Assembly: GCA_949317995.1 (NCBI GenBank)
Contig: OX439046.1
Location: 75,950,786-76,014,785 of the forward strand
Direction: 5' to 3'
Length of the DNA: 64,000 bases
Source of the DNA: Acholoe squamosa
Lineage: Eukaryota > Annelida > Polychaeta > Phyllodocida > Polynoidae
The translations under genes were made by a program, and so were the position numbers. Each line of letters begins with the position of its first letter. Within the stretch, counting starts at the first letter, position 1. Positions 9,352 through 48,115 of this stretch are shown in pieces. The notes beneath the pieces are model-generated. The model searched no databases, was not told where the DNA came from, and worked only from the letters and a program-made list of their open reading frames with translations.

Positions 9352-9708
9352 TTATTTCTCATCAGGCTTCATCTCGGGTTTCTCTCCCTTCTCTGCCGCC
9401 TTCTCTCCGCCCTTCTTAGTGGTCACATCCCGTATGGATGTCAGAGTTTTTTGGAACCATGTGTTCTTGGATGTCTGTATTTCGGTGATGGCGGAGTTGA
9501 GCTGGTGCGTCAGATCCTGTGTTTTACACTCCGACTCGACCAGTGCCAGTTTGGTCTGCGCCAGCTCTAGCTCTAACTCACGGATGGCACGCTCCTTCTC
9601 CACAATGCGTGGGTTGATCTCGGCCTCGTTGATGGGTGCATCAATCTTTTTGAACTGTCCGTCTGGACTGACCAGCTGCCCACACTTATCACAGTTCTGG
9701 ATCTGGTG
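9352..9708 (-). CDS. RABGAP1: RabGAP1 exon 22, C-terminus and stop
   Basis: Encodes residues 979-1096 and the TAA stop at 9352-9354. Acceptor TTGTTACAG precedes CACCAG. It starts with a CDKC cysteine pair, conserved in position in vertebrate RABGAP1 as CERC, then a coiled-coil heptad stretch ([20 protein letters not shown]), then NTWFQKTL, which matches the family's conserved C-terminal motif. The last 25 residues are Lys/Glu-rich and not conserved. Confidence 0.93.
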   Translation of the reverse strand, partial: HQIQNCDKCGQLVSPDGQFKKIDAPINEAEINPRIVEKERAIRELELELAQTKLALVESECKTQDLTHQLNSAITEIQTSKNTWFQKTLTSIRDVTTKKGGEKAAEKGEKPEMKPDEK

Positions 9709-12700
9709 CTGTAACAAGACAACAAACATGTCAGGGTGTGGCTTATATAGCGGCTCTATCTTCTCATAGGTATCTGGTGTCGCAATCACAACAGGAGGAA
9801 TATAGTGTATGGGGTAGAGTGTATTTTTTCCATGAAAAATAATCAAAATATATTATCTGTCATTGTTATATATTTTAGAATATGCCTGGGCAAATTCACT
9901 GCAAAAATTTGGTTTGGTTGGGGGGGGGGGAAATCTGTGATTGTCAAAGAAAAAATTGCCAAAATCTATTCAACAATAACTGTCTTGGCTTTTCAAGGGG
10001 ATGGAGACTGGGCTTTTACTTATTGTAAGGGGCTTTTACTTATTGTAAGGGGATTGAGACTGGGCTTTTACTATTGTAAGGGGATTGAGACTGGGCTTTG
10101 ACTTATTGTAAGGGGATTGAGACTGGGCTTTGATTTATTGTAAGGGGATTGAGACTGGGCTTTGATTTATTGTAAGGGGATTGAGACTGGGCTTTGACTT
10201 ATTGTAAGGGGATTGAGACTGGGCTTTGACTTATTGTAAGGGGATTGAGACTGGGCTTTGACTTATTGTAAGGGGATTGAGACTGGGCTTTTACTATTGT
10301 AAGGGGATTGAGACTGGGCTTTTACTTATTGTAATGGGATTGAGACAGGGCTTTGACTTATTGTAAGGGGATTGAGACTGGGCTTTGATTTATTGTAAGG
10401 GGATTGAGACTGGGCTTTTACTATTGTAAGAGGATTGAGACTGGGCTTTTACTATTGTAAGAGGATTGAGACTGGGCTTTTACTATTGTAAGAGGATTGA
10501 GACTGGGCTTTTACTTATGTAAGGGGATTGAGACTGGGCTTTTACTATTGTAAGGAGATTGAGACTGGGCTTTTACTATTGTAAGAGGATTGAGACTGGG
10601 CTTTTACTTATTGTAAGAGGATTGAGACTGGGCTTTTACTATTGTAAGAGGATTGAGACTGGGCTTTTACTATTGTAAGGGGATTGAGACTGGGCTTTTA
10701 CTATTGTAAGGGGATTGAGTCTGGGCTTTAACTTATTGTAAGCTGCCAACTGACCTTGATTCTCTCCAACTCGTCCTTGAAGGAGGCTTGTTGCTTCTCT
10801 AACCGCTCACTCAACTGGGAACAGATCTGGAAAAACAAACCCGTAAAATCCACAAATTATACAGCTATTTGAGTGAGCAATAGATGTTTAACACAATTTT
10901 GACAGCTAAGGTCATATTCATGGCGAGAAAACTACATTACACAATTTCACAGAGGAATGTGTGAGTGCCCGCAGATATGTGCATCACACACATCCTGAGG
11001 GGATAGGAAAGATAAGATTGAGACCCTTTTAAGTGGGCTATTTGATACAAGACACCTTCTATAATGTGTTATAAAACCTATACACAGAAGCTGACAAAGA
11101 CGCCGACCCATGGAGTTCAGCCAACACAGGGGCGTGGGAAGCAGTTTTAGAGTGGGTGGGACCAGGGGGGTTTTCTGCAATTTTTGACCTCCCTTTGCTT
11201 GACCTTTTAGTTTTGACCTTTTGAGGAGTTGGCCAAAAGTGGGCGGGGGAGGACATGTCCCCCCTGCTTTCCACGCCCATGCCACAGTTCACAAGACTAC
11301 CTATTTGGACTATCTAATTATTCCTATTATAATATTGTTGTTACCTTGCCTTTTGTAAAGGTAAACACAACACCTCAAGCTTTTGAAATGCAATAGAACT
11401 AATAAAAGCTCAAACTCACAAGTAAATGGACTTCTCAACATATGAAACTACACTAAAGTCTAAATTTGAAGGTCCATGAAAACCTCTGAAAACAGATTGA
11501 GCGTCTGACATCTCTGACAATAAGGAGACTTATCAACCAATGGAGGATACACCATAACAAATTAATTTCTTCTATTTCATGTGAGAACACAAACCCACCT
11601 TTTTATAGTCTGCGATGATAAGCGAGTTACGGGAGCTCTCGGACTCGGAGCGATCCAGCTCACGACGACACACGTCCTTGAGCTGGCTGGCCTCCGTTTC
11701 GAGACGTCGTTTTTCCTCCTCCACCTCGAGTAACTGGGAGCGTGCACTTAACAGCTCCTTGGTTAGCACTTCACAGCGGTCCTCTGCCTGCATTATGAAA
11801 TATGCATTATATAGAGTGGTAAATATAATAGTTATATATACATAAAATACAACTAGAGTAGCCCCGAGCGTGCACTTAACAGCTCCTTAGTTAGCACTTC
11901 ACAGCGGTCCTCTGCCTGCATTATGAAATATACATCATATAGAGTGGTAAATATAATACCGTAATCTCCCGCGCAGAAGACGCGCTGCGCATATAAGCGT
12001 ACCCCAAACTCAGCACATGCATTTTCGCGTATGAGACGCGCCTCTTAGGTACCAATTTTGTAAATTCAGTACATTTCTATAGTAAAATTACCCCTCGTAT
12101 AAGACGCACCCCCAATTTCAGTACATCCTATAAGACCCCCCAGCATTTTGTTTGGCGTAGAGGACGCGTCTTATAGGCAGGAGATTACGGTAGTTATATA
12201 TACATAAAATACAACTAGAGTAGCCCAGAGCGTGCAGATAACAGCTCCTTAATTAGCACTTCACAGCGGTCCTCTGCCTGCATTATGAAATATACATTAT
12301 ATAGAGTGGTAAATATAATAGTTATATATACATAAAATACAACTAGAGTAGCCCAGAGCGTGCACTTAACAGCTCCTTGGTTAGCACTTCACAACGGTCC
12401 TCTGCCTGCATCATGAAATATACATTACCCCTCTATATCCAACCAGTGGACATAATGCACTCATGCATCAGCGGCCCTTAAAGCATTGATAATCTCAATG
12501 TATAAGAGTGTGTCTTACATTGTCGAGTTCGTTGCGCAGTGCTATCTTGGATGTAACTAGTTCATGGGCGAGATCGTCGTTCTCCTGCTCAAGACGCATG
12601 TTTCCCTCCACGAGACGCTTGTTCTCACGCTGCAGGAAAGGTGTGAGAAAACACTTTTTATAATGACTGTTTTTTTTTAAACACATATATAAAACTCTTC

Positions 12701-47000: not shown

Positions 47001-47003
47001 GCT

Positions 47004-48115
47004 GTAGGCATACTGCTACCAGCGTCCTGTACACCGCTATCACCGGCTGTATGGTCTATGTGATGTCTCTGTGTACAGAGGGGAATAAGTCTTTGTTAGT
47101 ATAGGTACATACTGCTACCAGCGCCCCCTACATCACTCCCACCAGCTGTATGGTCTGTGTCCAAACAGGAATATGTCAGTGTTAGTATAGGTACATACTG
47201 CTACCAGTGCCCCCTACGTCACTCCCATCAGCTGTACGGTCTGTGTGATGTCTGTGTCCAAACAGGAATATGTCAGTGTTAGTATAGGTACATACTGCTA
47301 CCAGCGCCCCCTACGTCACTCCCATCAGCTGTATGGTCTGTGTGATGTCTGTGTCCAAACAGGAATATGTCAGTGTTAGTATAGGTACATACTGCTACCA
47401 GCGCCCCCTACACCACTCCCATCAGCTGTACGGTCTGTGTGATATCTGTGTCCAAACAGGAATATGTCAGTGTTAGTATAGGTACATACTGCTACCAGCG
47501 CCCCCTACGTCACTCCCATCAGCTGTACGGTCTGTGTGATATCTGTGTCCAAACAGGAATATGTCAGTGTTAGTATAGGTACATACTGCTACCAGCGCCC
47601 CCTACGTCACTCCCATCAGCTGTATGGTCTGTGTGATGTCTGTGTCCAAACAGGAATATGTCAGTGTTAGTATAGGTACATACTGCTACCAGCGCCCCCT
47701 ACACCACTCCCATCAGCTGTACGGTCTGTGTGATATCTGTGTCCAAACAGGAATATGTCAGTGTTAGTATAGGTACATACTGCTACCAGTGCCCCCTACG
47801 TCACTCCCATCAGCTGTACGGTCTGTGTGATGTCTGTGTCCAAACAGGAATATGTCAGTGTTAGTATAGATACATACTGCTACCAGCGCCCCCTACGTCA
47901 CTCCCATCAGCTGTACGGTCTGTGTGATGTCTGTCTCCAAACAGGAATATGTCAGTGTTAGTATAGGTACATACTGCTACCAGCGCCTCCTACGTCACTC
48001 CCATCAGCTGTATGGTCTGTGTGATGTCTGTGTACAAACAGGAATATGTCAGTGTTAGTATAGGTACATACTGCTACCATCAGCTGTATGGTCTGTGTAC
48101 AGAGGAGAGTAAGTC
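47004..48115. repeat. ~97-bp array derived from the RabGAP1 5' UTR
   Basis: About eleven units with GGTACATACTGCTACCAGCG, CCCATCAGCTGTATGGTCTG and AACAGGAATATGTCAGTGTTAG. The unit next to the gene (47004-47100) is the 5' UTR directly in front of the start codon (TACTGCTACCAGCGTCC, GGCTGTATGGTCTATGTGAT). In sense orientation each unit contains CCTGTTTGGACACAG before ACATCACACAG, a plausible 3' splice site, so the units may repeat an intron/5' UTR junction. Confidence 0.93.

Follow-up and report, generated by a model that had tools for sequence, protein, structure and literature searches.

The RabGAP1 gene of the polynoid annelid Acholoe squamosa carries short same-strand copies of parts of its own exons, which adjoin 7 of its 21 coding exons (E4, E7, E8, E10, E12, E14 and E19) and the 5′ untranslated region (UTR) of the start-codon exon. 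All positions refer to the window analysed, a 64,000-nucleotide stretch of contig OX439046.1. The copies, their position and strand, their intron content, their mixed identity and the open frame of the exons are observed directly. The copies are probably ordinary short tandem duplications, some of them across a splice site, that have expanded as minisatellites and are tolerated through a working exon-proximal site. Their anatomy is that of the known repeats called mirages in amphioxus; what is unusual, and notable, is their density and range of ages.

The gene occupies 9352–47000 on the minus strand, with 21 coding exons running from E1 (47000–46779) to E21 (9708–9352). The model was obtained by mapping human RABGAP1 onto the window and then fitting splice sites, which gives GT...AG at 20 of 20 introns and a single open frame of 1082 aa. 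The predicted protein is 54% identical to human RABGAP1 over 1059 aligned columns, where the query was an approximate human sequence, and Pfam domains PID, DUF3694 and RabGAP-TBC are recognized in it. Judged by its sequence the gene looks intact, and as in mirages the original exons, splice sites and reading frame are preserved beside the copies. Scored with the gene's own matrix, which included one mispositioned 5′ UTR acceptor that slightly shifts acceptor scores, the acceptors of E19 (11788) and E12 (23944), both beside arrays, are low at 0.0 and 1.8 bits; the E10 acceptor is even weaker at −6.3 bits, though it has no acceptor-side array.

Comparison of each exon with the window by BLASTN gave 45 same-strand non-self matches at E≤1e-3 (E4, 3; E7, 20; E8, 5; E10, 1; E12, 11; E14, 2; E19, 3), none of them more than 1252 bp from the exon it copies. 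In the control, 1 of 1050 dinucleotide-shuffled exons matched at this threshold, and chance similarity is ruled out as the source of the copies. Such a self-comparison of the window thus bears out an earlier note on this DNA, which had named eight sites (exon 1/5′ UTR and exons 4, 7, 8, 11, 13, 15 and 20) with copy numbers from 1 to about 19. All eight are real, the numbers found run from 1 (E10) to 20 (E7), and the note's exons 11, 13, 15 and 20 best fit E10, E12, E14 and E19, going by which exons have copies. Its wording that at least eight exon ends are copied needs correcting for E10, whose copy is internal. No additional exons with copies emerged from a protein-level search covering hits outside the E7 array and 54.9–55.7 kb. 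One opposite-strand match, 23 bp of E2 at 31117–31139 in intron 8 (91%, E=6e-4), may be due to chance.

The families are described here in gene orientation, and all of them lie on the minus strand. The 5′ UTR array (47009–48079) has a 97-bp unit in 9.6 copies by TRF and repeats the 5′ UTR just upstream of the start codon together with an acceptor-like ...ACACAG; the putative true 5′ UTR acceptor lies just above 47068. Two copies of the 5′ part of E4 are found at 40762–40890, with 40810–40890 matching exon positions 1–85 at 76% and 40762–40792 matching positions 1–31 at 84%, and the farther copy is preceded by a strong acceptor-like TTCTCTTTTCTTAG. A further E4 fragment upstream of the exon (39818–39872) matches positions 31–85 at 87%. 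The E7 array (36101–37404) holds 20 copies of the last 57–65 exon bases at 84–95% identity in units of 62–68 bp; the exon's donor GTAAGT has become TTATGT or TTATAG in 17 of the 18 copies listed and is GTTTGT in the most distal. At E8 (34545–35321) the array comprises 6.0 units of about 128 bp, the exon itself included; in each unit 27 exon bases lead into the donor GTAAGG, followed by about 100 bases of intron, and the donor is kept in 5 of 5 copies.

The single E10 copy (25497–25531) corresponds to positions 147–182 of the 248-base exon (36 exon bases, 92%) and begins 27 bp past the exon end. The E12 array (23925–24729) contains 11 copies, 99% alike, of a 71-bp unit in which 52 intron bases ending in the acceptor ACCAG are followed by 19 exon bases; the acceptor AG is retained in 11 of 11. 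The E12 array exceeds 11 units by 24 bp, and its far-edge flank is pyrimidine-rich and unlike the unit. Of the two copies of the E14 5′ end, the far one (21127–21187) is 61 bp long, 100% identical, begins exactly with the first base of the exon and abuts a 2-kb array built of 18-bp units, and the second (21084–21110) is 27 bp long at 89% with the acceptor TTGTAG. The E19 family (11788–12427) includes copies at 11850–11915, 12212–12277 and 12340–12405, which match 66 exon bases at 85–89% and have the acceptor ATGCAG; unrelated sequence at about 11959–12190 interrupts it. An AG directly at the copy start is absent from the E4 copy at 40792 and the E14 copy at 21187. Tandem units spanning the exon-intron boundary are clear in E7, E8, E12, E19 and the 5′ UTR array, while the boundary-spanning repeats of E4 and E14 have few copies and E10, as an internal fragment, falls outside the mirage definition.

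Intron sequence, read by eye, is carried by 6 of the 7 coding families (E4, E7, E8, E12, E14 and E19) and each BLASTN match is confined to one exon, so copying took place at the DNA level. A route through RNA, in which pieces of processed transcript were inserted into introns, could account for the far E14 copy beginning exactly at the exon border; with intron sequence in nearly every coding family, and with all copies beside their own exon and on its strand, it is extremely improbable, and a retrocopy of processed mRNA is ruled out, there being no joined exons. Every BLASTN match is also shorter than its exon, and thus no whole-exon copy is present among them. Together with an in silico test in which each of 24 copied sites, if used, would lead to an early stop (E4, 2; E7, 1; E8, 5; E12, 11; E14, 2; E19, 3; a test of six coding families, with the 5′ UTR and E10 families outside it), this is the ground for rejecting alternative or mutually exclusive exons.

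A wider functional reading, in which the copies serve as alternative exons or as decoy splice sites regulating RabGAP1, draws on the donors retained throughout the E8 array and the acceptor AGs retained throughout that of E12. It is nevertheless very unlikely, given the early stops, the loss of the donor from most E7 copies listed, and variation among copies that is not coding-like; in addition, splicing is reported to be undisturbed by the amphioxus globin mirages (PMC3087553). Within families, 13 differences are synonymous and 32 nonsynonymous, with no departure from 25% (P=0.61), so the variation resembles that of unconstrained DNA. Differences between exon and copies, counted where at least 60% of the covering copies (at least 2 copies) differ from the exon, comprise 10 synonymous and 8 nonsynonymous changes (P=0.005 against 25%), although of the eight, three at E7 positions 49–54 probably fall beyond what was copied, as may E19 positions 50–63. 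The contrast of 10:8 with 13:32 gives a Fisher P of 0.046, and without E19 it is 7:4 versus 11:29 (Fisher P=0.033); the E7 majority differences stand at 3 to 1 when divided by all copies. That the copies may retain older exon states, in the manner of a fossil record, is only suggestive on these counts. The edge effect expected for the E7 array is absent (rho −0.25, P=0.28), and E7 copies more distant from the exon are slightly more similar to it (rho 0.48, P=0.03).

Copy identities span 100% (E12, E14) to 76% (E4), indicating families of different ages. The same spread bears on whether the arrays were falsely expanded or copied during assembly. Precedents exist, as one globin mirage is reported to have been aberrantly assembled (PMC3087553) and PGBD5 copy numbers to be unequal between two assemblies (PMC3902484), and the 99% uniformity of the E12 array would suit such an error. 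An artefact is, even so, a poor explanation and most improbable, as units vary by substitutions and in length (62- and 68-bp units within E7) and diverged fragments such as those of E4, E10 and E19 are not expected from misassembly.

Repeats of the same kind fill the rest of the gene, where nine other local duplication families are wholly intronic. A 32-bp array on the minus strand (9995–10742) stops 13 bp from the donor side of E20. Others, with no strand assigned, are a 52-bp array of 47 copies (14757–17218), an 18-bp array that occupies most of intron 13 (21186–23164), a 70-bp array (27549–28057), a 97-bp array in intron 3 (40929–41137) and a cluster in intron 1 (43540–46206) made up of 39-bp (43540–44635 and 45676–46206), 50-bp (44763–45291) and 81-bp (45364–45551) arrays. 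Counting 17 hand-picked larger TRF arrays, with short repeats and a TA run left out, the gene interval has 14 that cover 12,387 of 38,764 bp (32%), compared to 3 that cover 1,904 of 25,236 bp (7.5%) in the transposon-rich flanks. The three outside the gene (1637–1830, 2277–2684 and 3435–4736) have 31- and 40-bp units, and no adjacent gene was recognized by eye.

Whether exon borders are special was addressed by comparing 17 local direct-duplication families with founding units of equal length placed randomly at protein-neutral positions. Eight of the 17 cross a border, one of them in the 5′ UTR only, against expectations of 1.40 for the sequence as it stands (P=2.0e-5), 2.01 after reducing each array to a single unit (P=2.8e-4) and 3.35 when 10 kb of intron is also removed (P=8.7e-3), an excess of 2.4- to 5.7-fold. 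Under the same three settings, 7 of 16 coding families cross (P=1.1e-4, 1.1e-3 and 0.021), as do 5 of 13 TRF arrays (P=1.5e-3, 7.7e-3 and 0.062) and 4 of 12 coding TRF arrays (P=7.7e-3, 0.027 and 0.14); for clear arrays alone the excess is 2- to 5-fold with weaker significance. The family list excluded dispersed or transposon-like pairs (30944/31805, 34089/35670 and 34354/35915), joined 39802/40794 to E4, counted the two 39-bp intron 1 arrays as one family, and used estimated unit lengths for E4, E10 and E14. The TRF count omitted five short repeats scoring below 90 (12967, 13658, 18795, 29634/29645 and 31816), and placing the 5′ UTR acceptor at 47086 or at 47068 led to the same conclusions. 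Two biases favour the excess: copies of conserved exons remain recognizable for longer, which inflates the count, and the list was drawn up after the copies had been seen.

In most settings the border excess is real, though its size is modest; exon borders may be moderately preferred. The earlier note had called the copies far beyond chance, which is true of sequence similarity but applies only in moderate degree to any special status of exon borders. It had also proposed a local process that duplicates across them; the copies are indeed real, local and made at the DNA level, but as many arrays are purely intronic, and a special border-duplicating process or border targeting is suggested at most. 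A stronger version of this idea takes splice junctions as hotspots where a process linked to transcription or splicing, for instance R-loops or forks stalling where exon gives way to intron, sets off tandem duplication. The overall border excess speaks for it, as do the array that ends 13 bp from E20 and the greater array cover inside the gene, whereas the excess falls to 5 of 13 clear arrays and 4 of 12 coding clear arrays, with P values reaching 0.062 and 0.14, and both biases apply in a list from one gene only. Such hotspots are accordingly doubtful. If minisatellites are born at splice junctions of this genome several times more often than in intron interiors, the arrays would form a fossil record of exons and raw material for new introns, a proposal that is likewise doubtful. 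No local direct copies (0) were found of five long open frames in the transposon-rich flank, two of which have a reverse-transcriptase domain.

Ordinary tandem duplication, the preferred account, would begin with genomic DNA being duplicated in short pieces, repeatedly, in a gene with minisatellite-rich introns, the starting step presumably being replication slippage or the repair of staggered breaks. Some of these duplications would span a splice site and leave one complete exon with a working exon-proximal splice site, and for this reason they would do little harm. Arrays could then expand, shrink and decay as any minisatellite does, with expansion likely through unequal exchange or slippage, and splicing would ignore the copies. 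The exact 6.0-unit array at E8, in which every unit repeats the exon end with its donor and intron sequence, supports this account, as does the abundance of similar arrays lying wholly within introns; the number of border-crossing families strains pure chance placement. One simple tandem duplication without later change does not explain either the E12 array, with its 24 bp beyond 11 units, or the far E14 copy; both would require something more, for example that the far edge was later deleted or replaced. The isolated internal piece of E10 counts against the tandem-duplication account, as does the missing edge effect in E7.

The closest known systems of this kind are the mirages of amphioxus. 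Those in the globins and Adh3 are associated with apparently normal splicing; unit numbers of 6 and 3 are reported for different globin haplotypes, Adh3 is reported to be somatically unstable, and it has been proposed that new introns could come from border repeats (PMC3087553). PGBD5 holds two mirage-type repeats, and TnC is cited as another case (PMC3902484). In both these genes (Adh3, the globins BflGb6 and BflGb9, TnC and PGBD5) and RabGAP1, tandem repeats span the boundary of intron and exon, at one or the other end of the exon, and many contain AG or GT signals. Unit sizes of 62–128 bp in the RabGAP1 border arrays compare with 10–160 bp in amphioxus. The likeness to the amphioxus Adh mirages drawn in the earlier note thus agrees with the globin, PGBD5 and Adh3 accounts in unit size and anatomy, for the one haplotype of RabGAP1 at hand.

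RabGAP1 differs in having eight families in one gene, compared to one per gene in the described globins and two in PGBD5. From single fragments (76–92%) to a 99% uniform array, it presents together what appear to be the birth, expansion and decay of such repeats, and its six like donors in a row at E8 and dozen acceptors at E12 offer a natural test of exon-proximal site choice. Amphioxus VCBP3 is a further parallel, as its introns contain copies of adjoining exons, whole or partial, some including splice sites; these copies are given as data not shown (PMC2632668), and the complete ones have no counterpart in RabGAP1 by BLASTN. In potato, a tandem duplication across an intron-exon boundary resembles the present ones and is reported to have given rise to a new intron (PMC4974935), whereas no gained intron was identified in RabGAP1 from this one sequence. 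No genome-wide survey of such exon-border repeats was found in the literature collection searched, judged by titles and abstract openings.

A comparison with Rfam gave no matches (0). Beyond the gene, the window includes two minus-strand retrotransposon regions, 50833–56187 and 59233–62820, in which reverse-transcriptase domains (PF00078) lie beside other long open frames and which look DIRS/Ngaro-like. An exact 153-bp direct repeat (50238–50390 and 50662–50814) sits next to the first of these regions, and a perfect 91-bp inverted repeat is found at 58395–58485 and 58651–58741.
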